The translations under genes were made by a program, and so were the position numbers. Under the pieces are notes generated by a model, which saw only the letters and a list, made by a program, of their open reading frames with translations, did not search any database and was not told where the DNA came from. DNA of 64,000 nt from Patiria pectinifera (lineage: Eukaryota > Echinodermata > Asteroidea > Valvatida > Asterinidae): assembly GCA_029964075.1 (NCBI GenBank), contig CM057136.1, positions 496,001-560,000 of the forward strand, in the 5' to 3' direction. This document shows, piece after piece, positions 29,840 through 50,357 of the stretch (positions are counted from its first letter, which is position 1; the number at the start of each line of letters is the position of its first letter).

Positions 29840-30170
29840 CTTAAGATCACTATATTCAATTTCAAGTACAACTCTAGAACGAATGATGGTAAACCCAAGC
29901 TCTGCATTTCTACCATTTGTTGCCTTCCGAAGAGCATATCAAGCACAATTATAAACAGGAATAGAGCCAGAATGATGACCTACTGACATATTGAATTCAG
30001 TTGTTTCACCATCAGGCGTGATCTGGTGTTAGTATGCATTGATTTTAGGGCCCTTTGAGGTCTGGGAGGAACTCCATAAGCCTTAAGGATTCCCATCATT
30101 TTGCCTAGATGAATTGACTCAAACGCCTTCTTGAAATCTATGAAGGTCAAGACGGCAGGGAGAAACATTT
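29840..30170 (-). mobile_element. Small LINE reverse-transcriptase fragment
   Basis: The minus strand from 30,168 reads LTFIDFKKAFESIHLGKM and MGILKAYGVPP. This is RT motif A (F-x-D-F-x-K-A-F) of a LINE. Closer to 29,900 a separate frame resembles the later ALRKATNGRNAELGFTI segment of such RTs. The part between them that should hold the catalytic Asp-Asp is absent. It is a short, old, internally deleted remnant unrelated in detail to the LINEs at 15-18 kb. Confidence 0.6.
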
Positions 30171-30423
30171 CGACTTTTAATTAGCCTTGTCCATGTTGTT
30201 TTTATCTACACTTGAATCGTTTGAATTCTAAAGGGATATAGCTGCAGCTCATTTGACACGTATATATACAAAGCGATATATCATGTGCTACGTACAGTAT
30301 GTTTAGTAGTTTTCAATTTTTAATAATTACAAGAGTTTTGCCAATTTTTTTAAGCATCTTGAAGATACCTTGACGTAACAGCTTCAGTACTTTTCTAATA
30401 TATATTATAAGTTATCCTGCGAG

Positions 30424-31487: not shown

Positions 31488-32764
31488 TACTGTATTCGCA
31501 TATTATCTTCAGTCATGGAAACTTCAGACTGGCCACTTTTTTTGGGCTTTATATTTATCGGATCCTTCTTCAAAATACAATGAGACGTGACATACCTATG
31601 CTGATGGGGGCAATTGAGCTATCCATCCATTTATAAGAGTGTCAATCTGCTGTAATATTGCGAGAGTCAATCGTTCACCGCACACAATAGTTACGCCGCC
31701 ATGTTTGTTTGCGTTATGCCTCGGTTTGATTTTCAAGATGGCGTACCCTTGATAAAGGTCTTTTGACATATACATTTGCTAATACAAACGGCTTCTTGGG
31801 CGGATATAGCATAGTGAATGCTGGGGGTCCGGGGCATGCCCCCCCCCCCCCCCCCCCGCCCTGAAAATTGTGAAATCTACGATGCTTTCCCCGCCACTCT
31901 ATAACACTATTTGAGAATATAGGAACTTTAGAATTCTTTTTCTTTTCTTTGGGCCCCATTTTACTGGTATCATAACATTATCAGAAGCTCAGGGGCTGCA
32001 TCCGCCCCCAGATTTGGGCTTAATATGAAATAAATAGAGCGAGTGTTTCTCAAATGCTTTTTTCCGATTTACAAAATTCCAGGATAATAATTTCTCCCAT
32101 ACTAATTCTTTGTAGACACACCGCAACTAACACATAATAATTCCTCATTTTTCATAACGAGGAAATTTCTTTCTTAAATTCGTACATAACATTTCTCTTA
32201 TTTATTGTCATGTTCTAAAGTTATTAAGTTCTTAAAGTACACAAGAAAAAGCAACCTTGCTCTACGACTGTCCAGATTTCCCTGGAGATTTGCCTTTCTT
32301 TTTAAAGTGTACTCCCAGGGTTTGTTTTCACTCTAAGTCTTACCAATCAGCTAATTATCTATACGTACACCCTGACTAACGATTAACCAGTATGCATTTT
32401 AAATGCATCAGTAATATACATTTACAAATTTTAAGAAGAAAAAAAGAACTAATAAATATTCATCAAATTTCATTCGAACTACCGACTAATTCTTGAGTAG
32501 AGCCGGTATTTACAAGCATGAATATTTTCGTTTTGTTATACGACAGAAGTAATGTAATGAGTCTGACTAATAGCAGCCAATCACTTCAAACCTCATGCTG
32601 CAATGTCCGTTCCATTCCGTGGGGTTAATGCGCAGGATTCTGGTGCGCAAGGCAAACGGCAGGCGAGTAGTTACCAGGGTGTTCCTGTCCTTATTACCAG
32701 GGAACTGTTTAAAAAAGAAGATCGGTGTGTTCATGTTGTAGACAGTCGAATGGATTCATTATGT
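31488..32764. other. Intergenic; C18 tract at 31,840
   Basis: GGGGTCCGGGGCATGCCCC plus a long C run at 31,827-31,860 belongs to the poly-G/poly-C dispersed families. The rest is AT-rich, with no gene recognised. Confidence 0.5.
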
Positions 32765-33130
32765 CCAGTGGCATACCCAGGGGGGGGGGGGGGGCAGGGT
32801 CCCCCCCCCCGATGATTTTTTGAAAGCTATTTTGCTCAGTAGGTATTTCCGTAAATGTTAAGAGAGTTGTGACATCAACCCCAAAAAAGAAACCAGCTAA
32901 AAAAAAGGCATTACAATGCGCTGTGAAAATCGGCACATATTTTCCAGTATGCATAATGAAGGTTTTGAAGAGCGCCCTCATTTGGAAGATGGTCCTCCCC
33001 CACCAATTTTTGATTTTACGGAGGCCAAATGTCGGAAGACAAAAAAACATGTCTACATTTCGCTGTGGATGTGCGGTTCCCCCCCCCCTCCCCCCCCCCC
33101 ACTTACACACCCACATCATGAGCTGGATAC
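32765..33130. mobile_element. Poly-G TIR element (family with TGGCATACCC ends)
   Basis: TGGCATACCCAGGGG with a G-run at 32,770 is mirrored by C-runs and GAGCTGGATACGC at 33,120. The interior, on the minus strand, contains TTTGGCCTCCGTAAAATC. The same interior occurs at 35,065, and the same right end at 36,180-36,255 and 55,190-55,265 (CGCGGATGTGCG(A)GTGCGGTT, C-run, GACATCAAAAGC(T/G)GGAT). It is a non-autonomous family whose ends carry G-runs of 10-16. Confidence 0.75.
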
Positions 33131-33702
33131 GCTACTGATTATGACGTAACATAGTCAGCAAAACAACTTTTGACATTTTGATACCTTTAAACATTTCTAT
33201 TAGTCAGAAAGCTTAGACCCAATTATTGACAAGATCGTGACCGACTGGTTCAAACCACCAGATTTGGCAGATAGATTGTTATAGCCCTAGAGTGAAAATT
33301 TAAGAAGGGAAGGGTGTCTAATTTGCATAAATCGTTAATCCCTACAGTGTAATATATTTTTCCTACTTTTAATTTTTTGAAAAGTATATTTTTTTAAATT
33401 TTTTGAAAAGTATATTTTGGGGATTTCACTTACACATCCTTACTTCAATAACATTTTCGAAAGCATTTAAGACTGACTGGATAATAATATGAGGACATAG
33501 TAACGATCCTAAATGGCTACTTTTATACTCTAAAGTTGCACTCATTAACGCTTTAATATGCATAATAGGCACTCTTCCCAAAAGAATTTCAGGGGTCAAC
33601 CCTTCTAAATATCTTCTTTATTTCTTTAATAATTTATCTGTCAAGTTTGGTGCTTGGGACCAGTCCGTCACGATTCAAACCGTGTGCAAACTGACTATAT
33701 AC
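33131..33702. other. Presumed intron or 3' part of the discoidin/CUB gene
   Basis: On the minus strand this follows the donor of the discoidin exon at 33,703. I looked for the final discoidin exon (the ARYIRI...LELLGC type) here and further left and did not find it. Confidence 0.4.
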
Positions 33703-33911
33703 CTTTATTGGCGTGCCATCTGCATCAGTCACGTTATTCCAGGACTGACCGTCGTTGCTGTACGTCACTTGGTACTCCGTCACCCATTCGTCGTAATCTC
33801 CGCGCCCCTGGGTGATCAGACCAGTGATGGTGACTGTGCCATTGAAGTCAACCTGTATCCATGGACTGATATTATCAGTGCTGCCAGCGTGAACCCAGCC
33901 TGCAGCGTGTC
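33703..33911 (-). CDS. Discoidin (F5/8 type C) domain, middle exon
   Basis: This 209-bp exon starts after TTTTTTGTTGTACAG and ends at ATAAAG|GTATATAG. It enters in phase 1 and leaves in phase 0. It encodes HAAGWVHAGSTDN, SPWIQVDFNGTVTITG, LITQGRGDYDEWVTEYQV and TYSNDGQSWNNV, the core strands of a discoidin domain (W-(I/L)-Q-V-D, V-T-G-(L/V)-I-T-Q-G-R, Y-S-N-D-G). Its first two bases complete the codon left open by the phase-1 donor of the exon at 42,692, giving the expected RLNTQ-G-HAAGW join. The final exon with the second conserved cysteine was not found to the left, so the gene is either incomplete in this window or the last exon has diverged or been lost. The domain would act outside the cell. 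Confidence 0.88.
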
Positions 33912-34407
33912 CTGTACAACAAAAAACCTAAGATTTCTTACTGCTTTCAACGATTTAGCCATATTGCAGGAATCTGTAATTTGGACTTCGAGGTTTGTTT
34001 AACAATCTTTGTTAATAATCTTTGTCTGACCCAACGCTAGACGACTAAGTTGACTAGCGTATCGTCCATGGGCGTCGTTAGACCATTTTGAAAGGGGGGG
34101 GGGTGTCATCATGAAATTTTGCATCACAAAATATTTGATAATTTCCGCCCCAAAAGATCCCTTAAATCCATTTCTAATTCCCCTACATCATGTATTATAA
34201 TGGTTTATTTTGTTGATTACTTTGAATGGGATTAATTTTTTAGTGGGATAAGTTCAACTTCAAACTAAAGAAAATCGTCAAAATTGGCCCTATCATATTG
34301 AAAATGTTTTGGACATGCTCTTCGCAAAACTGTGTGTACACGCCCAGTACCTGTGGACATACCTTGTTCAGGACAATTCCCTGATCCCAGCCTGGGGGTT
34401 TGTTACA
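33912..34407. other. Intron; CCATGGGCGTCG/G9 motif near 34,066
   Basis: GTCCATGGGCGTCGTTAGACC, here written in parts CCATGGGCGTCG and TTAGACC, precedes a G9 run. The same start motif is at 9,371, and its complement CGACGCCCATGG is at 36,551, marking another dispersed poly-G family. Confidence 0.5.
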
Positions 34408-34655
34408 ACTGATAATGTAGTAACCAACGGATAACGTATCACCAACCGATAATGTATCACAAATTGACCGATATTGTATCACTAACCGATAATGTACCAA
34501 AAATTGACTGATAGTGTAGTAAAATTTGTATCCGATAATGTATCACGTGTCGACGGATAATGTAACTACAAAATAAGTGTATCCGATAATGTATCACCAC
34601 GGAACGGATACTGTATCAACCGATAATGTATCAAAAATCAACCGATAATGTATCA
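34408..34655. repeat. CGATAATGTA repeat array, direct units
   Basis: About twelve units of the type ACCGATAATGTATCA, separated by AAATTGACCGATA(T/G)TGTA and similar spacers, run in one orientation. The first ~110 bp (GATAATGTAGTAACCAACGG, ATCACCAACCGATAATG) is closely shared with 63,011-63,120. Confidence 0.9.
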
Positions 34656-34969
34656 GTATGGGGAAAAGGTGTACACAAGTGTTTGTTTTATGTCCGATTA
34701 TCCGCCCCACGTTTTGACCAGGGAGGGGGGTCTGGGCTAGTTGATCACCACCCTCCCATTATTTGTATTTATAGAAAAAGGGCAGATTTTGAGGTATTTT
34801 TTCAAACTTTCCAACCGCCGAAATGTATAAAATAGTACTGAACAAGGGAGAAAAAATACAAATAGCTTGAAATGTGCTGGGACGTCTGTATCATGAACAG
34901 CGCCCCCATTTTTTTTTTTTAGCTATCCCCCATCCCCAAGTCCCCAGCACAGATTTACGCTACTGTTGT
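34656..34969. other. Intron; fragments of dispersed repeats
   Basis: T13 run at 34,909 and GAACAGCGCCCCCAT at 34,894. No coding signal. Confidence 0.4.
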
Positions 34970-35346
34970 AGGGGCGGATCCAGGAATTTTCGCGGGGAGG
35001 GGGGGGAGGGGGGTTCATCAGCAAAACAATCTGAAAATGTACACAGGATTTTTTTTGCCGGACACTTGGCCTCCGTAAAATCAAAAACTTGGGGAAGGGG
35101 GTATCATATTTCAATAGGGGACGCTGTTCAAATTTGACAATTATTAACACTGGATTACAGAATGGTGTAAAAATACCCCCTATCTAAGCTGCCTCCGTCC
35201 GTATTTTGAACAGGCGGACATTATACCAGTAAATATTTTGGGGGTGTCACCGCAGGGGGGGGGGTGTATTATTTTTTTTAGGAATTTGTATGCAATTTGT
35301 TTTGGGACACAGCTGGGGGACTCCCCCCCCCCCCGGATCCGCGCCT
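34970..35346. mobile_element. GGATCC/poly-G element, two GGATCC ends
   Basis: GGGGCGGATCCAGGAATTTT with G8 runs at 34,972 and a C13 run with CGGATCCGCGCC ending at 35,346 point inward as an imperfect TIR pair. Inside are GGACACTTGGCCTCCG and TAAAATCAAAAACTTGG, shared with the minus strand of 32,765-33,130. The segment may be one element or two overlapping insertions. Confidence 0.55.
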
Positions 35347-38300
35347 GTGTTGGCCTCAAGTAAGCGGCAGGCTAGTGACGTATGGACTCCAAACTGTGTG
35401 GGTTGAACAAACTGAAGTAAGTGGGTAGACAAATAACAAATGACGTCACATGCGAACGGTGCCCCCCCCCTAAAAAAACCGGGGCATTATTTTGTACGGT
35501 ACAGTAATATTGTGTACATGATTGTAGGATTTTATCAGCGCTCCCCGTTGAAAATATGGCACGACCCCCTCCCCCCTCATCGACCCCCTCCCCTCATCCC
35601 CTCCCCCCTCACCCCCACTAAATGAGCAGTAATGCTGTGATTGTGCCCTTATCAAATCTGTAAGAAAAAAAATCGACTGGGGTCGACAAGGGACCCATGA
35701 AGCTTGATCGCATGTAGACTATCTTTGACGATTGCCGCCTAAATCCGGTAAACTTGTTACATTGTATCTTTTGTGACAGCTCAAGTTACATGATCATTTC
35801 AGATGGTAGTTTTGCTATACTATGCCTCGCCACTCGTATGTGTTCCCGGTTCATGCACAGCGCGTATTTTGAATGATGCAAAGTTATTGGGGGAGGGAAT
35901 AGTCTGGGAGACCATCGCAAGTTAAATTGAATGTGTGCGCGCGCCGACATTGCCTAACGCTCATGCGAAGACGCTGCTGCTAATAGCCACATTCTGGCAC
36001 ATTCTGGAAGTGGTGTGGAACTTCGCGCGCGAACCAGTACAGTACAGTACGCACATGCTGTGTCCCGTCCATTGATCGGAGATCAATGGTCCCGTACGTC
36101 CACGGGGCTCTCAAAAGAGGTAAAACGCACCCTCTTGTGTCGCAGCACGCAGCCCATAATTTGTCCGGAGAAATGAACTTGTCCACATTTCGGCGCGGAT
36201 GTGCGAGTGCGGTTACCCCCCCCCCCCCCTTGACATCAAAAGCTGGATGCGCCAATAGCCTAGGCCCACTTGGAAGTAGAGCGTCTCCAAACCAGAGCAA
36301 CTCCCTACCTCCCAAACAAAAAAAATATTCTTAATGATAAACTTTCTCGAGTGGGGACTTATCATAGTAGAGGCACTTATTAGACTTTAATTAATTTGCA
36401 ATATTTCCACGGTGTCTTTTATATTCTCCATATTTTCTTCTCTCTTTTTTCCCCCTTCTTTCTCTATTTTTCATTTTTTTGGCCGACAGCACCATGATTT
36501 TACCGACGAAAATGTTTAATGGGGGTCGTGATACGCCCCCTCCCCTTGCACCGACGCCCATGGTATTGTCGGCTCTTCAGGACCGCTTTGGTGGTTGGTC
36601 GCATTGCTGGTTACGCGTACGATAGCCGCACGCCTCACAATGCGCAGCAGGGACCCGTGACCCATATAATTTCCTGATGATGCTTTGCCGATATCGTCTG
36701 AACATTAACGTCCGCACATTACTTGTAGTGCACAGTCGAAATGGATTAGGTTGCTACGAATCAACCACAAATCGAGCAGTAAATTGTGCAACTGAAGGCA
36801 CATTGCGAATGCGCCCAATTGGGCTACAACATGCAAATTAATGAAATTATTTTAATTAAAAAGAACATTTAATAGTAGGACATCAACGTCTACACAACCA
36901 TCATTTAAAACTGGTTGTTTTTGTGTGATTCTTGTGTGACAACTAATTTTGGGTGTCATAATTGTGAGTCTCAAAAATCGAGCTGTTGACAGTCAGTAGC
37001 CGTGTCACGCACACAGCCTCGTTTGACCTCAGTTTCTCGTCCCGAGGTCAAGCGTACATGGGATTTTACGAGATTTATTCGAGACTACAGAAAAACACAA
37101 AAAGGTGCCTCGATACATGCACTGTTTGGCCAAGATGGCTAAATAAGTGAAAAGTTGAAATCGTGTGCTTTATTTTGATAACAAAAATAACTGCTTTTGA
37201 CAAATATAAAGTGTTGTTATGGCCTGTCAAACAAAATCGTATTTTTTATCAACAAAATCAAGGGCCGATGGTTTTTAGGTGTACATTCGATTCTTAAAAA
37301 AGTGCCGAAACAAATGGCAAGGCTTAGTAGATAGAGGAAAGTATACGCTTCATTTTCATGTGAAACACGTGCAGGGGGCTTCTAATGTTTGGTCCAAATT
37401 GCCGGTTGAAAAATGAAGACATGCGAGATTTCATGATTTGCAATCACATGTACGCGTGTAATCGAATGTAATTACGCCGACGTACAAAATGTACGTTGGC
37501 CTGAAAACATTGTGAATAGCACGTGCGAACGCGCAATGACTGACTTATGAACCATACTCATACTCGTACAGGTACCATACTCGTACAGGCCCATACTCGA
37601 GCTCGACCAATCAGTAGGCGTATGGGTCACAAGGTCACACCGTGTTTGGGTTCCTCGCTCTATGCTTTACAATGGCGACGATCTTTTCGCGTTGTTAAAA
37701 ACGGAAGTTGTTAAAAACGTTAGGTGTACATTGAATTCTTAAAATATGAACGACATCATGTTCACGAGATTTTTTGTGGATGAAAGTTCACTCTTTCGTT
37801 TGATTACCTCAACATTTGGGAGACTTTCGTCGTTCTCGAAAAAAAACCCCCGAAAACTCGAAAAAAAAAACATGAAAATTGCGAATTTTCTGAAGCCCTT
37901 TTTACGGCCATCGTTCGCTGGCCACGCGTTGCTATCAACTGTGTGGACGAGAAAATAGAGGAGCTGCGCGTGACACGGCAACTGACTGTTGAGTGCTAGT
38001 TGTGAATCCGGCCTGGCACAGTGTATTGCATGATGCAGACGTGCAAGAAACAACATTTGTGTTGGTGCTGTTTGTATTATGTGACGCACACACGACGTGT
38101 ACTGTACATTGAATGGAAACGGCGGGACATACGTATATGTATGCCACAAAAGTTTGGAAAAGGGATGTAAACAACTGTTCATCCATCTTTCTCAGAAACG
38201 GTAAGACATTAGGTTAGTTTCCTTTCAACCAGACATTTGAAATAGTATAAAGAAACAACCCTAACTAGAGATTTGCGTTTGTTGTTACAAACGCAGAGTG

Positions 38301-38599
38301 GTCGGGTAGAAACGAGTTTATCAAACACTGTCCAGTTAAGTAATGAAAATTTTCATGTAAGAGCAAATGATCAAGAAATTCAATCCTGTCCAGGACAATC
38401 AATTATTTTGTTTAAAAAATTGCATCTTTAACGGTGTGATAAATTTTAGTAATCATTCTATGTACTCATACACGTTATTTCTGGGTTTATAACGTCTTAA
38501 GTCAAAACTGGGAAGTGAATACTGATTTCAAGTTCGGAGTGAATGTTCATTGTAAAGTTAAATAACGTATGAAAATTTGGAAAACTTAAGTGTATGTCT
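35347..38599. other. Long intron or intergenic stretch, no gene seen
   Basis: It includes a C-rich run CCCCTCCCC at 35,565-35,610, a partial poly-G TIR element at 36,150-36,255, and CGACGCCCATGG at 36,551. ACGCGTA and TACGTA palindromes are scattered through the rest. The overlapping frames at 37,740-38,186 on both strands have no recognised domain. If the discoidin/CUB gene is one unit, all of this is intron. Confidence 0.5.
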
Positions 38600-39400
38600 T
38601 CATAACACCGAACTTCCGGTTTCATGACGTCACAGTATTTGGAAGGAAAAGAAAAACATTGTATTGGATATCGTTGTTTGGGCTAAGATATATGACATGG
38701 AAGAATTAATTTAAACTAGGTTCGTTGGCAAATTCTCATAGAAGTAACTTCCGGTCTAATGATGTCATGAATTTAAAACCTTGCCAAGTTATCTGTGGTT
38801 AATCGAAGAATATCAATGAGCGATTCGGTAAAAGTTGAACCTATGGTTTGATAAATTAAAGAAAACCCACCTTTTATGTGCCGCTAGGGGGGGGCGCCCT
38901 TTCGTTTGATGACGTCATCACACTGTTTTTTGTGTGTCTGGCATTCCTCACTTAACACTTTCATAATATATATGTCTTTATCGCTTTTGAGTTATATCAA
39001 GTTTTTATTGCACTTCCGGTAACACTGGAAGTAAAGGTCAAGAGGTTTTGTGTCTGGGAGTACGTAATGTTTCTCACGGCATAGTCTACAACCTCACGAA
39101 AAAAAACGAACGCGATACTCTATTTAGTTCAAAAGATATAAAGCAAGCTATTTTGTCCAAATTTGCCCTTAAATCGCTTGTAATTTGATACCTGATGACG
39201 TCATGATGGCGTAACAAAATTTGTAACATCTTTGTAACATGGTACAAGTTCACACAAGGTTTTGTGATCATACCGTTAACCGTTCGGAAGAAACCGTGCT
39301 TTATTTTGATATCAGGCTAACTTCTTTATTTTGAATTCACCTAACTTTGATCTTCCGGTAGACCCGGAAGTAAAGGTCAAGCGTGTTTACGTACACGACA
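38600..39400. repeat. Degenerate repeats of CTTCCGGT and TGACGTCA motifs
   Basis: ACTTCCGGT occurs near 38,610, 38,748 and 39,012, and TCTTCCGGT at 39,352. GGAAGTAAAGGTCAAG follows at 39,028 and 39,368. TGACGTCA occurs near 38,625, 38,910 and 39,193, with the variant TGATGTCATG at 38,760. The spacing is irregular (roughly 140-350 bp). The TGACGTCA palindrome is the CRE-type half-site pair known for bZIP proteins, but use here as a regulatory site is only a possibility. Confidence 0.55.
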
Positions 39401-39619
39401 AAACGTGTTAAGCAATCAATGGTCTATCTGATTGCAGAATACAAACATCATTGATTTTTAATGACTAGAGTTCGAATTGAAGTTGCAAGTTTGACTGTAT
39501 TCAACTACAATCTTACTTGTTGTAATGAGGGTGCAATATTCAAACTTTATGCCCTGACATTACTTGAAAATTCTAAATCTATGCAGGGATAGATCTGCTC
39601 ACAACTTATACTGACGTAC

Positions 39620-39961
39620 CCGTTATTGAGACGCTTTGGGCAACAATATAAAACCCTTGATAGGTGACACTGCCGTCCGAAGTGAACCTCAGCCACATCT
39701 TGTTTCCTGATGAAACTTTGTCAGTTGGTATCACGCTCCCAGATAGGGAAAAGAGCTGCGCTGTGGATGCGTTTTCACCATCGCCCCCCTTCAGGTTGTC
39801 GAACGTAGACTCGAGTCGAAAGGAAACGAATGTGAGCTGGATGATTCGACCTTTGTCAGTCTGAAGATACCAGATGTCATCAGCGTTGTTGGGATAGTTG
39901 CTCGGGTAGTTGGTAGAGGTTATGGTGTAATTACTCTCTGCACTTACAAATACAGTTCGAG
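39620..39961 (-). CDS. CUB domain exon, copy 1
   Basis: A 342-bp exon (114 codons) runs on the minus strand between the acceptor TGATTTGTCGAAAG|CT and the donor AACGG|GTACGT, phase 1 at both ends. It encodes TITSTNYPSNYPNNAD, IWYLQTDKGRIIQLTF, VSFRLES, GDGENASTAQLF, SSGNKMWLRFTSDGS and YQGFYIVAQ. This is a complete CUB fold by motif order (YPxxYPxN, ...I.L.F..F.LE, G...W..F.SD.S....GF). It has no cysteine, whereas typical CUB domains have two or four. One N-glycosylation site (NAS) is visible. Symmetric phase allows inclusion, skipping or duplication without frame loss. It differs from copy 2 at only a few residues (STFDNL against SRYDNL, SITG against SMTG). Confidence 0.9.
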
Positions 39962-41109
39962 CTTTCGACAAATCAGACAGAAACAATATTATTTTACTTC
40001 AGTCAGTTAAAAATATCCAACAAAACAGAACAATTTAACAGATAGTGTTCTTGTACGTGCGAGTAAGCTAAAACAAGTAACTTTCGATATATATTGAAAG
40101 TTACAAGTTCATACCTTACAGCATTTAGGAGAAAACCCGCGAAGTATTGATCAGAAAAAAAGAAAGAAAGAAATAAAGGAAGATTAATCGTAACAACTCC
40201 AAACAGTGGTCGGGTTGTGCCCGACCACTGAACAACATAATAATTTTGTGAATTGCAGGCTGAATAATACCCGTTGGCTAAAAGGGCCAGTACCCGATTT
40301 AACTAAACGATGCGACGCGTCGCTACTCAAGTTACACGTGTAACACGTCGCAACTGGCGATGCGTCGTATCATCCATTAAACGAAACTTGCAATGTGTTG
40401 AATGCGTTGTATTCAAGTGGTCATCGCCAAATAAGAAGAGTCCTTTTCTCAGCCAGTTTTATGCCTTAATCATCACATAAACGAGATTATACTACCTAGG
40501 CAGTGTGTGTAAAGTTGTAAATAGAAAATTCATTGAATAATTATGAAATAACCTGGAATATTGCAGTTAAAATTTCAAAGCAGCTATACAGTCCACTGAG
40601 AGCTTGTTTACCTTTACAATTGCATCACACGGCCGCCATTTTATTTGACGTTTTAACAAATTTTGAGCGGAGATCCGACAACTGATTGTTGACATCAGAT
40701 GACTATTTTCTGTACGCTGACTAAAGACATAAAACAGTCACCGAGTTGTGCTATAAATACACCTACGACTCGTCTCATTTACGACGTGTTTTGTGAAATG
40801 GATCGCCGGACGCGTCGGTACATGCGTAGAACAACTTATCATAAACATATCCAAGAAATTTCATGACTATAGGTTAAAGGGTTTTGGAATTATGGCTGAT
40901 TGATTATTCATATATGCACGAATGGTAATTCTGCCCTGCGTACACTTACGTTTATAGGGAAATTCATTTTTCACTATCACTATAATTTGTTATGATTTTG
41001 GTATCAAAAGATGCGCAAGACTCGAAGCTAAAAAGTCACAACAGCTTGGGTCGCGAACTTTTTTTTCTTCAAGGCTATCGAGGAAAAAGTTAAGGTCATT
41101 GAGACGTAC

Positions 41110-41451
41110 CCGTCATTGAGACGCTTTGGGCAACAATATAAAACCCTTGATAGGTGACACTGCCGTCTGAAGTGAACCTCAGCCACATCTTGTTTCCTGA
41201 TGAAACTTTGTCAGTTGGTATCACGCTCCCAGATAGGGAAAAGAGCTGCGCTGTGGATGCGTTTTCACCATCGCCCCCCTTCAGGTTGTCGTACCGAGAC
41301 TCGAGTCGAAAGGAAACGAATGTGAGCTGGATGATTCGACCTTTGTCAGTCTGAAGATACCAGATGTCATCAGCGTTGTTGGGATAGTTGCTCGGGTAGT
41401 TGGTAGAGGTTATGGTGTAATTACTCTCTGCACTTACAAATACAGTTCGAG
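41110..41451 (-). CDS. CUB domain exon, copy 2
   Basis: Near-identical tandem copy of the 39,620-39,961 exon, 342 bp, phase 1 to phase 1, donor ATGACGG|GTACGT. All CUB motifs are kept (YPSNYPNN, QLTFVSFRLES, KMWLRFTSDGS, GFYIVAQSV) and there are no stops. It lies 1.24 kb downstream of the discoidin half-exon at 42,692 and upstream of CUB copy 1. In a transcript reading every exon the order would be discoidin first half, CUB, CUB, discoidin middle part. A CUB domain inside a discoidin domain would be odd, so these exons may be alternative cassettes or belong to a paralogous unit fused by duplication. Confidence 0.9.
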
Positions 41452-42040
41452 CTTTCGACAAATCAGACAGAAACAATATTATTTTACTTCAGTCAGTTAA
41501 AAATATCCAACAAAACAGAACAATTTAACAGATAGTGTTCTTGTACGTGCGAGTAAGCTAAAACAAGTAACTTTCGATATATATTGAAAGTTACAAGTTC
41601 ATACCTTACAGCATTTAGGAGAAAACCCGCGAAGTATTGATCAGAAAAAAAGAAAGAAAGAAATAAAGGAAGATTAATCGTAACAACTCCAAACAGTGGT
41701 CGGGTTGTGCCCGACCACTGAACAACATAATAATTTTGTGAATTGCAGGCTGAATAATACCCGTTGGCTAAAAGGGCCAGTACCCGATTTAACTAAACGA
41801 TGCGACGCGTCGCTACTCAAGTTACACGTGTAACACGTCGCAACTGGCGATGCGTCGTATCATCCATTAAACGAAACTTGCAATGTGTTGAATGCGTTGT
41901 ATTCAAGTGGTCATCGCCAAATAAGAAGAGTCCTTTTCTCAGCCAGTTTTATGCCTTAATCATCACATAAACGAGATTATACTACCTAGGCAGTGTGTGT
42001 AAAGTTGTAAATAGAAAATTCATTGAATAATTATGAAATA

Positions 42041-43340
42041 ACCTGGAATATTGCAGTTAAAATTTCAAAGTAGCTATACAACCCACTGAGAGCTTGTTTA
42101 CCTTTACAATTGCATCACACGGCCGCCATTTTATTTGACACTTTAACAAATTTTGAGCGGAGATCCGACAACTGATTGTTGACATCAGATGACTATTTTC
42201 TGTACGCTGACTAAAGACATAAAACAGTCACCGAGTTGTGCTATAAATACACCTACGACTCGTCTCATTTACGACGTGTTTTGTGAAATGGATCGCCGGA
42301 CGCGTCGGTACATGCGTAGAACAACTTATCATGAACATATCCAAGAAATTTCATGACTATAGGTTAAAGGGTTTTGGAATTATGGCTGATTGATTATTCA
42401 TATATGCACGAATGGTAATTCTGCCCTGCGTACACTTACGTTTATAGGGAAATTCATTTTTCACTATCACTATAATTTGTTATGATTTTGGTATCAAAAG
42501 ATGCGCAAGACTTGAAGCTAAAAAGTCACAACAGCTTGGGTCGCGAACTTTTTTTTCTTCAAGGCTATCGAGGAAAAAGTTAAGGTGGGGGCGCGGGTTC
42601 CGCCCCGGCCCCTTTAGGGTTAAACAACTGTATTTTCTTTTAAATACGGGAACTAAGTATAACGTGGTTAGTCTCAAATACAAATGCTAACCTTGAGTAT
42701 TCAGTCTGGCCCTGACTGGTGCATGATCAGCGCGGTTGTGCCAAAACGACGAAGCTGTGATGCTTTCATCCGGGATGCGACCATCTTCCATCCCGAGAGG
42801 TCCCTCCATAGAGCAAGAAGAGTCACCTGAGGAAAAATGTGCGATTGTTTCAAGAACAGGTTTTGTACCGAATCCCATTTTAATAAAACAAGAAGAAAAT
42901 AGTAATGAGTCTTTTTCCGCAACCCAGAGTGCTTGCAACGTCAAATAACATATGAAAGGGAGCCCTCTATCTTGCCTGCCCCTACAGAGACGCATTTGAG
43001 TCCCCCCATTGGCATGTCGCCGCCGCGCTATTATCGATTGGTACTACTGATGGCGGATGCATTCATGATCACTAAACAAATTGAATGAAGTAGCACACGA
43101 TTAACTTCAAAATTATGTATTTTAAGTCTACACTATTTTTTTTAATTTGATCTCTCATATCATATTTGTGGTGTGATTATTTTACTTCAAGAAGCTGTGT
43201 CGACAGATAAAGAAAAACATTCCAGACATGTCAAAAATACTATTTTACGCACGAAATTTGGATAGTCAAGACAAAAGATACCGTCGGACCACACACTACA
43301 GCGATATCGACATCGTGCATGAGCTGCCACGCTGGTCATG
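42041..43340. repeat. Segmental duplicate of 1-1,371
   Basis: Partner of the segment at the window's left edge, in the same orientation. Its first 540 bp also forms the end of the 1,490-bp tandem duplication, so this stretch exists in three versions in the window (1, 40,551 and 42,041). Confidence 0.9.
42692..42826 (-). CDS. Discoidin (F5/8 type C) domain, first-half exon
   Basis: A 135-bp exon (45 codons) runs from acceptor ACATTTTTCCTCAG|GT to donor ACTCAAG|GTTAGC, phase 1 to phase 1. It encodes DSSCSMEGPLGMEDGRI, PDESITASSFWHN and HAPVRARLNTQ. This is the beginning of an F5/8C domain: the conserved first Cys, PLGMEDGRIPD, ITASS and ARLN. It joins in frame to the N-terminal exon at 45,208 on one side, and to either a CUB exon or the discoidin exon at 33,703 on the other. 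The paralog at 718-846 is two codons shorter. The product would be secreted, and discoidin domains usually bind membranes, glycans or matrix proteins. Confidence 0.88.
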
Positions 43341-43678
43341 TTCCAGATACAAAACCATCACTCCTCAGTCTGGCTGCCAGACGCACAATTACAAAATTAC
43401 AACAACGTCTGCATAGGGTGCCCGAATAAATTTAGTACAAAATGTAAGGGAGCTCAGAGAGGTCACATAACGCTTATACTTGATTGTAACTTCATGCCTG
43501 CCTCGTCTCCTTCCTAAATGTCAATTGCGTTTGAATGAGTCCAGATGTTATTTGTTTCAAATTTGCATATTACAACTTGCGACACAAAGGTCTGGTCATC
43601 CAGACCAGATGCGAGATGTGAGATGGCAGATGGGGAACAGCTTAGTAGCGCAAATTTCACTTTAATAGTGCGCCTAGG
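43341..43678. other. Intron, nothing recognised
   Basis: No exon-like signal between the end of the segmental duplicate and the minisatellite. Confidence 0.4.
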
Positions 43679-43845
43679 CTCGTTTGAACGAGAGATAAAT
43701 AAGTCATCTATAAGATAAATAAGTCGTTTAAACCAGATAAAAAAGTCGTTGAAACCAGATAAAATCCGTCGTTTAAACGAGATAAACAAGTCGTTTAAAC
43801 AAGATTAATAAGTCGTTTAACCGAGATAATAAGCAGTAAATTAAT
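43679..43845. repeat. Minisatellite, GTCGTTTAAACGAGATAAA units
   Basis: About six units of 24-28 bp of the form AGATAAATAAGTCGTTTAAAC, here given in its core AGTCGTTTAAAC. Each contains the palindrome GTTTAAAC. Confidence 0.85.
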
Positions 43846-44506
43846 ATAATAAAACGACATACTATGTCGTTTTTTGGCTTGTTTGTTTGTTTGGCAGCAA
43901 TACCGGTACGTTCTACAAAAACGCAGAGCCAGGCCATGTTGGTTTTTTTTTATTTACTCGCTAGCGGTTTTGGCGCAAAAGTCGGCGGCGCAATGGCATG
44001 AAACAATCCAAATGCGCGTCAGTATCAGATTTTTTTTTCTGAAACCGGCATTTTTTTAAAGGGATATTACGTTCTCGAATGTGCCAAGTTGGGCAACAAA
44101 ATTGGAAAGAGCATTTAAAAAAAGGATATAAAGATCGACATCATAACCATCCTTTAAAAGCCAAAATCATGTGCCACATTCGCGCAACGAGTACCGTACA
44201 TTGAATGGACACGGCTGAAATGTCCGCCGCGTCCGATCCACGCGATGTGAACGACCGCCCCCCCCCTTCTTTCTTTAGAACGGTAAGCCATTAGAATAGT
44301 TTCCTTTCAATCAGACCTTTGAAATAGGATAAGTATTAATCAATCCAAAACATGACATTTCCGGGGATTCTAGGCCGCAATTCCCATTAGAAACGCTAAA
44401 AACCGCGAATACACGAGAAAGTTGCATGCCTTATTTCAATGATTTTGACTCGCCAGGGGGACTTTAATAGTTCTGATTGATTGATTAATTGATTTGGTTG
44501 ATTGTC

Positions 44507-44543
<37 letters not shown>

Positions 44544-45207
44544 GTTATTATTATTAAGGGAATAAATGTGTGTTTGGGAGGTATTATAACACTCTGTTTA
44601 AGACCGGTTTGAGTCTGGATGGACGATAATTACCTGAGGCGAGAGGCTAGAGCTGCCATAAAAAAAAATAGCGTTCCGTATTCCTGCAGCAAAATTTCCG
44701 AATTTTTTTTTTCCATTCCGTAAAATAAATAGACCCTTAACTTGAGTTTGGACATGTGTACACGGTTGTGGGTGAAATAACAATATGTACTTAGATGTAC
44801 TTTATTATGTGTAGGTGTTTGGGCAAATGTGGTTGATTGTTATTACGCTAATTAGCATAATTAATATTTACATTTACGGAAAGTCAGTAAAATTACGGCG
44901 AAAATACGGAAACATTTCACTTTACGGAGTCCGTAAATTTACGGACATTTTTCACAGTGTGTTTTGTTTGATTAATATACCCGACGTCGAGGTTCCAGGG
45001 ATGAGTGTGGCTAATTTTCGAACCTTTGAACGAATATCGTCAAAAAAAAAGAAAGTACTTTCCAAAACCACGTTCAATAATTGTTTTCTTTGGAAAGGTA
45101 TACAATTTCTGCCAAAATATTTTCACATGGTATTTAGTACCAGTCCTTTCTGCACTGTCAGCAAGATTTATTTTATTAAATCGGTAGGATTGTTTCCTTG
45201 TATATAC
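43846..45207. other. Intron; ATT microsatellite at 44,509-44,556
   Basis: A run of about 16 ATT units lies at 44,509-44,556 and a C9 run at 44,260. The frame at 44,815-45,219 on the plus strand is antisense to the splice end of the host exon and is not supported. Confidence 0.5.
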
Positions 45208-45513
45208 CATCGTTTCTAGGTGCCTCAGAGGTGATTTGAATTCCGTGCGTCGTCTCCTCCACTTTGCCCGTAGTGCAGTTGAACCAACGGCCGATGACCT
45301 CAGCAGTCACCTCTGGCAGCATGTCCATATACACCGGTGGATCCTGTCCCTGCATCTCAGGCGCGTAGCGGTGGTAATGACCGCCTAGTCTGACCCCTGT
45401 ACAGGTGCAAGGATCCCCCGGTGGCAGGACATATCTCCCCATGCGCTGGCCGCAACCGCGTGAGTCTAGGTCAATCATCAGAGTACAGACTCGGGCCGAG
45501 ACTGAACTGACCA
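45208..45513 (-). CDS. N-terminal module exon of the discoidin/CUB gene, unknown fold
   Basis: A 306-bp exon (102 codons) runs between acceptor CTGAATAATGCAG|TG and donor AAACGATG|GTATATAC, phase 1 at both ends. It starts VVSSVSARVCTLMIDLD and continues SRGCGQRMGRYVLPPGDP, CTCTGVRLGGHYHRYAP, EVTAEVIGRWFNCTTGK and HGIQITSEAPRND. There are five cysteines and one N-glycosylation site (NCT). I do not recognise the domain. It follows the signal-peptide exon directly and joins in frame to the discoidin exon at 42,692 (RND-G-DSSC), so it forms the mature N-terminus. Codon content and absence of stops support real coding. Confidence 0.75.
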
Positions 45514-45778
45514 CTGCATTATTCAGTGAAACAAACAAACAAACAAGCATGCAAGCGAGTTAAAACATATCGTGTGAAACCACAGGGCAGGAAGAGAGAA
45601 AAATGGAGCAAGGTGCACCTAAGCCTGATGCAAGGAATCTGTTGACCAAATTGCAACGAAATTGCAAGATGAAAACAAAACTTTTCCAAAATGAAGGGAT
45701 CTTTGAAACCTTTCAGACCTTAATGCCTGGATAGATTCAGTGGTAGACGTATTTTCAAACTTCACACTTGGCAACGTG
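45514..45778. other. Intron 1 of the discoidin/CUB gene
   Basis: Ordinary AT-rich intron sequence between the N-terminal exon and the SINE. Confidence 0.5.
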
Positions 45779-46136
45779 AAGTGAAATAATATGTTGTTAT
45801 AGGGCAATCGGTACCAGATGGACTCTCAAAGCGCTTAACATAATTATTACCCCTGCTCGTTGGGCTCATAAAACAACCGTCTCAGCTCCCTGGGGAGTAT
45901 ACAACACAACGCTTCCATTTAGGTGCAAAGCAGCCAAAAATTAACCACAAAAAATGCTGCCCAGGCTCACAGTTATACCCATTTACCCATGGAAAAACAA
46001 GAAGTGAGGACAAAATATCCTGCCCAAGGACACACGCACCGCAAGCCCAGGATGGACTCGAACCAACAATCTGATTGAACAATTAACCACAGATTTTGAG
46101 TTTGATGCTGCAGACCATGAGGCGACACCACTCTAC
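45779..46136 (-). mobile_element. tRNA-headed SINE inside intron 1
   Basis: On the minus strand from 46,136: GTAGAGTGGTGTCGCCTCAT resembles a pol III A box region, and GTTGGTTCGAGTCCATCC gives a good B box (GGTTCGAGTCC). After that come CCTTGGGCAGGATATTTTGT and, near the end, GTTAAGCGCTTTGAGAG, a tail seen in several invertebrate SINE families. It is non-coding. A matching LINE partner could not be named. Confidence 0.75.
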
Positions 46137-46209
46137 TTGTTAATTGAAAACAAGGGAGCCATATAAATATAACATTGCAACTGAACGAACTTGATAATTA
46201 GTAACGTAC
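46137..46209. other. Start of intron 1
   Basis: Short stretch between the SINE head and the donor of the first coding exon. Confidence 0.5.
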
Positions 46210-46291
46210 CTATAGCAATTAGTGCTGTCAGCAATGCATTTAAATTCCAGCCCGATGCCATGGCTTGATGGCCACTTCTCAAGTTAAACAT
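46210..46291 (-). CDS. Signal-peptide exon of the discoidin/CUB gene
   Basis: The minus strand has a strong acceptor, GCTTTTTCTTTTCTTCAG, directly before ATG at 46,291, and a donor GCTATAG|GTACGT at 46,210. From the first ATG it reads MFNLRSGHQAMASGWNLNAL then LTALIAI; from the second (46,261) it reads MASGWNLNALLTALIAI. Either gives a signal peptide with hydrophobic core LNALLTALIAI. I prefer the second as the shorter, more typical one, but the first is possible. The exon leaves in phase 1 and fits the next exon at 45,513. Because an acceptor precedes the ATG, an untranslated first exon and the promoter should lie further right. Confidence 0.75.
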
Positions 46292-47036
46292 CTGAAGAAA
46301 AGAAAAAGCAAGAGTCAAACATGACGTAAAGTTGGAGGCAGCAAAGAATTTTAAAATAAACCACTGTCGGGTCTATGTCTGTTCATTGAACAGAACATAG
46401 GGCTTTTCAACATAACGATTATTTATAACTCTATGTCTGTGCAGTCAGGTAAATCATCAATTTCATGTATGACCAAAGTTCCATGAAGTCTCGTAGTTAT
46501 TTATGGGAATTTACGATGGCGTCACATGACCCATGGTAACGCCATAATGAAATCAACTCCATTTCTGTCAATAACACGCCCCTATTTACTTTCATACCGA
46601 GTCACAACCCGGTCAGACTTGTAGTTCTCTAAATATAGGACTTTAAAATATACACCTTTAAGATGACGTCCCATGACCTATGGTGTCACCATGACATAAT
46701 GTTTCGCGGACCGTCTTAATAATAATACCGGAGTCTTATAGCACCAACAATTAGGTACTTTATCCCGTACCTTTTCTTTGTCGTGTTTACACATCACTTT
46801 ATGCCTTCTTCGATACAACAATAATCTATTTGTTTGTCGGATTCCATTGCTTTATCTTTGCAGGCCTGGTTAATTGAAATGGAACAAATTTCGTGTGCCA
46901 AGAGAAAAGACGTTAGCAGCCAAGGCACGCAAAAAAAAAACACTTTTGGAGATAATCGAGTTTAAAAGCTTTTGTGCTCCCATCTCTAAATTAGAAATCG
47001 CATAAGGCTGACATTTATGACTTGCGACATTTGTTA
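46292..47036. other. Upstream region of the gene, no element named
   Basis: It may contain the 5' untranslated exon and promoter of the minus-strand gene. Imperfect repeats of the type CATAACG/ATGACGTCCCATGACC(T)ATGG occur at 46,505-46,540 and 46,660-46,685. No TATA box is assigned. Confidence 0.4.
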
Positions 47037-50000
47037 ATATAGGTTTTCCCGGCGAATTTCCTAATTTTTCTAATCAGTTTCATTATCAGCCATTCAATTT
47101 CGCATGAGTTTTGCACATGTGGTCAAATTGGGGTTTCTTTTTCATTTTGGGTTCATTCACTTTTCATTTTTAGGCAGCCAAGATTTTGCTCTGAATGTTC
47201 GTTTTCATTTTCGGGCAGCCTATTTTGTTTTGGTGCATTCACGACTTAACTTGTAGCAGTCTTTAATTAAGTCTTTGCAACTTTTGACGGTTGATGCATT
47301 CAAATTAGCGAACATCTGTGCGCTTAAAACGTACAACCATGCTTTTCGTTTTTTATTCGTTTATGGGCAATCACTTTCATCGTTTGGTCATTTAAATTAG
47401 TAACCTTTTTTAATCGATATATATTTTCCTATTTTCCTCCGAGGTTCATTCCCCCCCCCCTCAATTTTTTTTTTTTGATGGCTGTAACATTTACAATGTT
47501 ACAAATTAATTAACTGATATGAGGGAAACAAGATGTAAGGAAATTATCAACTGAAAGAAACTAAGATAATTTCTTTTTTCACTGTTGATCTTTTCTACTT
47601 GTTTAAGCGTTTGAGCAAGGGACATCTTTACGTTGACGATTTCTTGACGAGCAAGACATCGGGACACGTATGTTTGGCAATGGTTGTACCATCAGGAACA
47701 CTTCTCTTGCGTTATTTCTTAAATCTTTTCTTGCGTATGTCTGACTAAACGCTTACCGTATTCAAAGGGCCCATGCAAAGTAAGTTTTCAATGCAAACAT
47801 TAAAAATACATCTTTGTGTCACATTTAACCTTATTAGCAAGTTTAATTTTCCATTTTGAAGAGTGTTTTGGTGCCTTTTTTGTTTTTATGCTAATGCAAA
47901 GTTTCATATTCATTAAAAAACCTAAGATGGCATTCTGGGCATGATTAATGTTACATGGCTATTTCAGCACAAAAAGTTGCTAGAATTTTGGATATTTTGC
48001 TGTCAGAATTTTTTTTTTATTTTTGGTGATTCTATGATGTGTCAGTACATGGCAGTAAGCCAATGAGCGACCCTTTCCCACAAATGTTTTCAATTAGCAA
48101 TTTTGGATGAATAATTTGAAAGAAAAACCCCTAAACTGAACAGTGTCTTCCTGAAATGACATCATAGTAACAACGCGCTCATACGTAGTCCGGAAAAGCA
48201 TGGACATTTTTAAATGTTTAAAAAAGTGCACTTTTGCAATAAGATTTAACAACAACATGTTGTCAGATGTGTAGTTTCCTTACATTTCACAGTAGTAAAC
48301 AGTTGCACTACAAAATCCTGAGAAAAATTCATTGCACATACCCTTCAATTATAAGCAGACAAAGTAAAAATCACAAACAACACAAACAATTTGTATGTCT
48401 ACGCCTCAGCCAGAAGGTTTTTATTCAAAAAATGTCGGGTACCGAAACCTGGGCAGCCGACCCATCATCCATATAGCACACTATTATTATTGTCAATATT
48501 CACATTTTGGGCACCACAAAGGCCCAGAGCACCAATAGCTCATCCAAGCACCATTTGACTCGGAGACCATAGCTCTTCCGTTTTTTGGGCACCCACAAAG
48601 GCCCAAGGGCAGCTCCAAGCACCATTTGACTCGGAGCACCACAGCTCAATCATCAATGCAATAAATGACCTATTTACGATAGGCCGAACTGAAAATCTAT
48701 AGGTTTTCCCGGCCAATTTCACCAAGTTTTCATTCAATTTAGCGCCTGGCTCATTCAATTTAGATTGAAATTGAAAGATCACGCAGATCGGCATTTGACA
48801 ATCAAAAAGAATCATTCAATTTCCCTATCCGAGCATTCTATCGCCTTTTAGCTTCACTCGTCCCTATCAAAGATGCATTCATTTTAAAAGTATTGCGTTG
48901 TTCATTCAATTTCGTCTAAACCATTAGTAAGGGGTTGATTGGGCATTCGTTTTCATTAATGGGCAAACATATTTCACATTTTGTCAAACATCTTCATACG
49001 TGTCCGTATTCCTTAGCATAAATCATATTTGATGACTTCAATCCGTAGATGCCCTTCTTTCTTAATTGAAGGGTATGTGCAATGAATTTTTCTCAGGACT
49101 TCTTATTGTGCAACTCTTTACTACTGTGAAATGTAAGAAAACTACACATTTGACAATTTTTTTTGGTTAATCTTCCTGCAAAAGTGCACTTCTTTAAACT
49201 TTTTTCCATGCTTTTACGGACTACGTATGAGCGCGCTGTTACTGTGATGTCATTTCAGGAACACACTGTTCAGTTTAGGGTTTTTTCTTTAAAATTATTC
49301 ATCCAAAATTTGCTAATTGAAAACATTTGTGGGAAAGGGTTGGTCATTGGCTTACTGCCATATACTGACACATCAAATAATCACCAAATAAAAGAAATTT
49401 ATGACAGCAAAATATCCAAAATTCTAGCAACTTTTTTTGGTGAAATAGCCGTGTAGCATTAATCATGCTCGGAATGCCATCACAGGTTTTCTAATGAATA
49501 TGAAACTTTGCATTAGCATAAAAACGGAGAAGGCACCAAAAACGCCCCTCAAAATGGAAAATAAAACTTGCAAATAAGGTTAAATGTGACACAAAGATGT
49601 ATTGCATTGAAAATTTTGCATGGGCCCTATGAATATGGTAAGTGTTCGGTCAGACATACGCAAAAAAACATTTAAGAAATAACGCGTGAGAGAAGTGTTC
49701 CCGACGGTACAGCCATTTCCAAACATATATACGTGTTCCGATGTCTTGCACGTCAAGAAATCGTCAACGTAAAGATGCCCCTTGCTCAAACGTTTAAACA
49801 AGTAGAAAAGATCAACAGTGAAAAAGAAATTATCTTAGTCCCTTTCAATTCATTATTTCGTTGCATCTTGTTTCCCTCATATCAGTTGATTTGTAACATT
49901 GTAAATTTTACAGTCATGAAGATTTTTTTTCAGGGGGGGAAATGAACCTCGGAGAAAAATAAGAAAACAAATATCGATTAAAAATTCTTATTAATTTAAA

Positions 50001-50357
50001 TGACCAAACGATGAAAGCGATTGCCCATAAACGAATAAGAAACGAAAAGCATGGTTATACGTTATAAGCGCACAGATGTTCGCTAATTTGAATGCATCAA
50101 CCGTCAAAAGGTTGCAAAGACTTAATTTAAGACTGCTTCAAGTTAAGTTTTGAATGCACAAAAACGAAATAGGCTGCCCAAAAACGAAAACGAACATTCA
50201 CAGCAAAATCTTGGCTGCCTAAAAATGAAATTGAATGAACCCCAAATGAAAAAGAAACCCCAATTGGACCACGTGTGCAAAACTCGCGCGAAATTGAATG
50301 GCTGATAATGAAACTGATTAGAAAAATTCGGAAATTCGCTGGGAAAACCTATATTAA
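47037..50357. mobile_element. Long palindromic element, arms about 1.3 kb
   Basis: 47,037-48,360 is the reverse complement of 49,046-50,357 over its whole length with moderate divergence. The ends read TTAATATAGGTTTTCCCGG and, mirrored, GGGAAAACCTATATTAA. Inner landmarks include GCACATACCCTTCAATT against AATTGAAGGGTATGTGC at 48,337 and 49,066. If TAGGTTTTCC is the terminus, the flanks fit a TA target duplication. The middle (48,361-49,045) contains the left end of a second inverted repeat. No transposase was recognised, and the small frames in the arms do not stay in the same frame between arms. Confidence 0.85.
48509..48665. repeat. Two direct copies of a ~78-bp unit
   Basis: GGGCACCACAAAGGCCCAGAG and GGGCACCCACAAAGGCCCAAG, each followed by CCAAGCACCATTTGACTCGGAG, here named by the core CACCATTTGACTCGGAG, lie about 78 bp apart in the centre of the palindromic element. 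Confidence 0.8.

Follow-up and report, generated by a model that had tools for sequence, protein, structure and literature searches.

The window analyzed here is a stretch of 64,000 nucleotides from the sea star Patiria pectinifera (contig CM057136.1; C8:496001-560000), and the genome searched comprised 613.5 Mb in 1,020 contigs. On the minus strand of the window lies a predicted secreted discoidin gene with two CUB exons inside the intron that splits the discoidin (F5/8 C) domain, and one of these exons sits within an inserted element that is, by its structural marks, of the non-autonomous Helentron (HINE) type. Judged from the genomic sequence, this gene of a large C8 family was very probably rebuilt by recent exon shuffling, with a CUB exon borne by the HINE, a later doubling of that exon, and a foreign front segment with a signal peptide (SP) exon and a Cys-rich exon.

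Gene layout and predicted products

The exons were assigned as follows.

46210-46291, minus strand: exon SP, MFNLRSGHQAMASGWNLNALLTALIAI, AG acceptor 5' of its ATG, GT donor, donor phase 1
45208-45513, minus strand: exon Cys, Cys-rich module, phase 1-1, AG acceptor and GT donor
42692-42826, minus strand: exon DSa, discoidin (F5/8 C) part 1, phase 1-1, AG acceptor and GT donor
41110-41451, minus strand: exon CUB-A, 342 nt, phase 1-1, AG acceptor and GT donor
39620-39961, minus strand: exon CUB-B, 342 nt, phase 1-1, AG acceptor and GT donor
33703-33911, minus strand: exon DSb, discoidin middle part, phase 1 to 0, AG acceptor and GT donor
32567-32704, minus strand: exon DSc, discoidin last part, AG acceptor, ending VIGCY-stop

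Every exon of the first-pass annotation was recovered on the minus strand, bounded by an AG acceptor and a GT donor, and the phases held as well, every junction being phase 1 save the DSb donor (phase 0). Its two discoidin exons, DSa and DSb, stand as listed; the domain is complete, with a third exon, DSc, that had been overlooked, and since DSc was found at 32567-32704 the gene spans 32567-46291. Without either CUB exon, the DSa-DSb join reads RLNTQ-G-HAAGW, as had been proposed.

The spliced discoidin with both CUB exons skipped matched the full length of PF00754 (97.8 bits, positions 1-127 of 127), the query for this and for the comparison with solved structures holding one extra Q at the DSb/DSc join relative to the exact splice. 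The CUB exon matched PF00431 with 73.6 bits (cut-off 21.4), and no Pfam family was matched by the Cys module. The reading remains open without an internal stop with 0, 1 or 2 CUB exons, giving 289, 403 and 517 amino acids, respectively. The CUB donors match the consensus at 7/9 positions, equal to DSa and DSb, and the CUB acceptors hold 13 pyrimidines out of 20, compared with 14/20 for DSa, DSb, and DSc. The frame logic of the switch proposed earlier is sound, the CUB exons being two 342-nt phase 1-1 cassettes with donors as near to consensus as those of DSa and DSb.

Skipping of both CUB exons would yield an intact secreted Cys-discoidin protein like other family members, while inclusion of one or two would nest CUB within the discoidin fold, between RLNTQ and HAAGW. 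This inclusion point aligns with ARLHLQ / GRSNAW of factor VIII C2, a position that we take to be beside the membrane-binding loops. Because the CUB exon contains no cysteine (0), an included CUB would not be expected to compete for disulfides. We think that the main outcome would be CUB skipping, with inclusion in some fraction of transcripts.

The insertion, its cargo and the tandem duplication

The features within the discoidin intron are given below.

38266-40230, minus strand: CUB-bearing element of HINE type, its 5' end at 40230, with high-copy ends and empty paralog sites
40084-40230, minus strand: element 5' arm, palindromic subterminal repeat CAGTGGTCGGG-CACAA-CCCGACCACTG
39457-40083, minus strand: captured host fragment of 627 bp, CUB exon with 5' and 3' intron pieces and both splice sites
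38266-39456, minus strand: element 3' arm, CCCGACCACTC, palindrome GCGTTTG..CAAACGC, CTCTAG
41103-42586, minus strand: tandem duplicate copy A, with CUB-A
39613-41096, minus strand: tandem duplicate copy B, with CUB-B, the remaining element 5' side and native intron

The window intron aligned to that of a reference C8 paralog up to 38265 and again from 40231, which delimits 38266-40230 as an insertion. At this paralog (L046) the flanks AAACAACCCTAAC / AACAACATAATA are joined directly and the site is empty, and the same insertion-free join was found in the neighbouring gene (L064) and in two further loci (L065 and L066), so that the site is empty in 4/4 C8 paralogs read. The insertion site is the phase-1 intron splitting the discoidin domain, and the element lies in the orientation of the gene itself. 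The first-pass annotation had also considered a scrambled paralog cluster; this was abandoned, as the insertion is absent from all four paralogs read at the site and the CUB pair are the only C8 copies above 39% identity among the best 150 of 418 CUB candidates.

The ends of the element occur in many copies. With the first 200 bases of one end as the query, the best 40 of 993 candidates (own copy included) all start at base 1. For the other end, the 38 matches outside the locus among the best 40 of 1,019 stop at query positions 150-166, 20 of them at 153, with the element end at 151. Flanks were tallied at 20 more 3' ends and 20 more 5' ends (drawn from the 39 and 38 other matches listed, respectively) together with the loci already read. 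Counting the window copy, 23/24 3' ends read CTCTA and one TTCTA, and they are followed by GTT in 21/24 and by CTT in 3/24. L050 was left out of this 3' tally, its end following a piece of another copy and reading CTCTA and then CTTTC. TT precedes all 24 5' rows, which correspond to 23/23 distinct ends as L054 and L087 are the same place. Two 3' ends pass straight into a 5' end, i.e., these are head-to-tail copies.

Read on the minus strand, the element starts with TT(G/C)AGTGGTCGGG-CACAA-CCCGACCACT and finishes with CCCGACCACTC, the palindrome GCGTTTGTAACAACAAACGC, about 9 nt, CTAG, and then TT. Across the family, the 11-bp subterminal repeats read GAGTGGTCGGG close to the 5' end and CCCGACCACTC close to the 3' end; in the window copy, C replaces the first G of the repeat at the 5' end. 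Hairpin folds are present at both ends of the window copy. The palindrome GCGTTTG..CAAACGC is located about 9-10 nt before the CTAG end, and from the 3' subterminal repeat to that end the distance is about 42 nt at the inner edge and about 31 nt at the outer edge. According to excerpts of PMC4067079, palindromic subterminal repeats lie near both ends of HINEs, and members of one family share at least 11 identical bp in them; a further palindrome is located 8-35 bp from the 3' end, the target is TT or T-rich, empty sites occur, and tandem repeats may be present. The repeats, the 3' palindrome, the TT insertion, and the paralogous empty sites of the window element all agree with that description. 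Excerpts of PMC5148889 add that Helitron2 elements carry a hairpin at each terminus, that their inverted repeat is asymmetric, and that Helentrons insert at TT.

By these structural marks, the element is of the non-autonomous Helentron (HINE) type. Helitron Rep domains are common in this genome, with 148 matches to Helitron_like_N. It resembles HINE and DINE-1 elements, as far as these are described in the same excerpts (PMC4067079, PMC5148889), in the subterminal palindromes at both ends, the 3' palindrome near the terminus, the TT target, the paralogous empty sites, the high copy number, and the occurrence of some head-to-tail copies, but differs from them in holding an entire domain exon of the host, splice sites included. 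Compared with the mite HINE families in the excerpts of PMC4067079, its repeat is 11 bp instead of 12-15 bp, and the outer edge of the 3' repeat is about 31 nt from the terminus, whereas theirs lies about 38-60 bp away.

Two other element classes were rejected. A canonical Helitron (Helitron1), which begins with 5'-TC, ends with 3'-CTRR, and inserts between A and T according to excerpts of PMC5148889, would agree with the 3' CTAG found in 21/24 copies, but 22/23 distinct 5' ends read TTGA, and the flanking dinucleotide is TT instead of A/T. A cut-and-paste element with a 3-bp target duplication (AAC) was considered as well; because GTT, which is AAC on the other strand, follows the end in 21/24 copies, a TT-target element fits better.

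On C22, HINE 3'-end matches recur about every 2.12 kb (L107, C22:12952168-12954400), with listed matches at C22 12.95-13.10 Mb. In the single unit read, the terminal 300 bp of the element are present together with an EGF exon of phase 1-1, and this locus is possibly an EGF exon array with a HINE element caught in an intron.

The cargo of the window element could be traced to C6. Positions 39457-40079 are 96.8% identical to C6:22275471-22276093 (623 bp), where SRCR exons come after a CUB exon; Pfam confirmed two of these SRCR exons (102.5 and 119.4 bits), and a third was noticed by eye only. No element arms were detected in the 13 kb read at this donor locus. The arms are about 96-122 bp apart in five other element copies (L050, L051, L054, L059, and L060) read across the point where the window copy has its 627 bp, and the captured fragment is absent in 5/5. 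The fragment comprises the whole CUB exon, the acceptor with about 120 bp upstream, and the donor with about 160 bp downstream, and with the full exon and both splice sites it arrived splice-ready, phase 1-1, and in the orientation of the gene.

The two CUB exons, both present as annotated, are not two old domains, as they derive from one 1,490-bp tandem duplication. The copies differ at 12/1,484 positions (99.2% identical), the junction filler at 41097-41102 repeats the adjacent CGTCTCAATGAC, and the donor GTACGT is intact in both. As the duplicated unit starts within the element, 7 bp past the end of the CUB-B exon, and finishes in native intron, the duplication must have come after the insertion. 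Of the 12 differences, five are exonic, three of them within codons 53-54, which is too few for inference.

Diverged HINE-like remnants occur near 4/8 other close CUB copies (one on C12 and three on C14: L034, L035, L036, and L110). They have 67-87% identity, are mostly short, lie at most about 1.5 kb from the CUB exons, and are positioned off the fragment edges. None were detected in the stretches read at four C6 CUB copies. Old HINE copies in CUB introns might have helped capture. Many CUB matches were also found in one open frame of 5,506 codons at C14:28808937-28823846, a giant single-exon multi-CUB protein.

The SP-Cys segment and the discoidin family

The front of the gene comes from a different source than its discoidin exons.

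44503-47039, minus strand: foreign 2.5-kb segment of C21/C22 type with the SP and Cys exons, 3' edge (AAT)n, 5' edge TTAA

With introns included, this segment matches three C21 copies at 94.8-95.9% identity and one C22 copy at 92.5%, while a fourth C21 copy (L013) reaches 97.8% over 543 bp only. Copies of the SP exon on C21 and C22 are 93-100% identical, and the Cys exon is 97-99% identical to five C21/C22 exons compared with about 32% to the native C8 type. As the mutual homology of C21 and C22 extends beyond both segment edges and the C8 reference sequence resumes at 44502, the SP-Cys stretch moved into C8. The single C21 gene followed further downstream (L063) encodes EGF and fibrinogen C-terminal domains (24.1, 74.9, and 38.4 bits). 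By these similarities, the gene is a mosaic of three families, namely discoidin, CUB-SRCR, and the C21/C22 type.

Next to the segment, an inverted repeat pair occupies 47036-48351 and 48698-50355, with one outer end at the TTAA where the C21-type segment starts. The C8 reference paralog has the same repeat as one long copy and a shorter related piece, and three C21 copies and the C22 copy lack it at the 5' edge.

Discoidin exons of the DSa/DSb kind form a large family, with many members on C8 (0.07-2.7 Mb and elsewhere) and others on C3, C14, and further contigs, as obtained from the best 150 of 418 and the best 150 of 307 candidates. The reference C8 paralog has DSa at C8:220789 and DSb at 225386, and a Cys exon of the native type lies about 12 kb upstream of these, at 208729; in a C3 relative (L043), a related Cys exon is found about 450 bp upstream. 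As both carry Cys exons, the combination of Cys and discoidin is an ordinary architecture in this genome, which CUB within a discoidin intron is not. The native Cys type occurs eight times in C8 0.2-2.7 Mb, with the nearest occurrences at 209 and 974 kb, and neither tblastn nor a four-sequence hidden Markov model found a native Cys exon upstream in the window. Several C8 discoidin genes are without a nearby match to the Cys types searched. The neighbouring paralog has its first discoidin exon at window positions 719-847 (C8:496719-496847) and its DSb at C8:494223-494429, and no Cys exon belonging to it was found within the window.

Origin and possible use of the CUB exons

In the preferred course of events, the element would have picked up a CUB-SRCR fragment through template switching in rolling-circle replication, and the loaded element would then have transposed into the C8 discoidin intron. 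The later 1,490-bp tandem duplication, beginning inside the element, gave the second CUB exon. Several results weigh against this account or limit its reach. Arms were found at the fragment edges in 0/8 other close CUB copies (79-95% identity) and a single CUB-loaded element was found, so that transposition of the element together with its load is what we infer. The empty-site count covers four of many C8 paralogs. Among the sampled ends, the three 3' ends out of 24 that run into CTT and not GTT, plus the uncounted L050, depart from the pattern. These ends are also not all independent, as 6/23 5' ends have one common flank and flanks are common to the 3' ends of L072/L073, L079/L084, and L069/L086. 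The splicing of the CUB exons is a prediction from genomic DNA.

Tests of selection add to these points. The ratio of nonsynonymous to synonymous changes (dN/dS) of CUB was 0.55-1.15 against the C6 copies and 0.7 between the duplicates, the latter with few changes. It was lower, at 0.36-0.42, against an older C12 copy, a comparison that also reflects constraint on other lineages. In the SP-Cys segment, changes specific to the window were similarly frequent in exons (3/384) and outside them (19/1,870). By dN/dS and change counts, clear selection for the use of CUB or SP-Cys here was not found. For comparison, discoidin exon 2 had a dN/dS of about 0.5-0.7 against three paralogs and of 0.7-1.2 among those paralogs.

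The readings of the locus differ in what happens to the CUB exons and in the order of events. Chances are about even that the element and the CUB exons are inert intronic cargo, always or nearly always skipped, a reading with which the near-neutral changes relative to the C6 copies, the recent insertion, and the intact DSa-DSb join on skipping agree, while acceptor, donor, and frame remained intact in both copies after the duplication. A splicing switch in use, in which 0, 1 or 2 CUB cassettes are spliced in and the cell produces and folds the nested discoidin-CUB proteins, appears somewhat unlikely. Its support comes from the three stop-free in-frame products, the donors and acceptors close to those of the gene itself, and the capture of an exon that is the donor gene's own with its own splice sites; however, clear purifying selection since arrival was not seen in CUB, and many of the molecules would probably fold poorly with a domain inserted in them.

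Capture in place, in which an empty element came first and the CUB fragment was later copied in from C6 by gap repair or template switching, is rather unlikely in our judgment. The single loaded element and the lack of arms at the fragment edges in the eight other close CUB copies speak for it and nothing decisive speaks against it, as arms and flanks look alike under either order. That the assembly joined unrelated pieces or placed two alleles in tandem is very improbable: the 99.2% identity of the duplicates speaks for such an error, but the insertion boundaries coincide exactly with the termini of the family and with a paralogous target that is intact, and the duplication junction consists of short templated filler with no clean overlap.

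Neuropilin discoidins are among the solved relatives of the window discoidin domain. In neuropilins and DCBLD, CUB and F5/8 C modules are found in one protein, side by side; the window gene has the same module pair, but its CUB would sit nested inside the discoidin. Many animal receptors and lectins are held to have arisen through shuffling of phase-1 extracellular modules, and the events are usually too old to reconstruct. Here, the donor exon, the carrier with recognisable ends, four empty paralogous sites, and the later exon duplication are all still readable, and the DNA step is recent, with about 3% difference from the closest donor copy and 0.8% between the duplicates. The locus is a concrete case of exon shuffling by a Helentron-type element and, if CUB is spliced in, would also amount to a natural experiment on the nesting of one domain within another. 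The wider proposition that HINEs naturally ferry phase-1 extracellular modules around this genome, and that CUB is spliced in to form a new secreted recognition protein, recently put together from three families, with one or two CUB domains nested in a discoidin lectin fold behind a signal peptide and Cys module from a fibrinogen-lectin family, is quite unlikely.

Among titles and abstract openings of the open-access literature, no report of a HINE delivering a domain exon into another gene was recognised. What appears to be new is the combination of a complete splice-ready extracellular module, a HINE-type carrier, an intron within another domain as the target, and a donor and empty targets that are visible. 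Helitron capture of gene fragments is described for maize (PMC4528327), fungi (PMC4289320), and other eukaryotes, among them a bat-derived element (PMC4778049). The window element is alike in that a rolling-circle element mobilises gene fragments and can yield chimeric transcripts, and unlike in that a single phase-symmetric extracellular module was placed in frame inside the domain of a second gene, in an animal. Animal Pack-TIR transposons, as presented in excerpts of PMC8277862, likewise carry host fragments that can be joined to neighbouring genes and include tandem duplication of loaded copies, but they are terminal-inverted-repeat elements, whereas the ends here are of Helentron type.

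Two further observations concern the surroundings of the element. A second insertion in the same intron, at 36990-37985, is seen relative to paralogs; it has inverted ends CAGTCAGTAGCCGTGTCACGC / TCAGTTGCCGTGTCACGC and the 7-bp repeat CTGTTGA on both sides, and resembles a hAT-like element. Downstream of the gene, a minus-strand open frame at window positions 29980-30180 (LTFIDFKKAFESIHLGKMM...) resembles a piece of a reverse transcriptase, as judged by eye.

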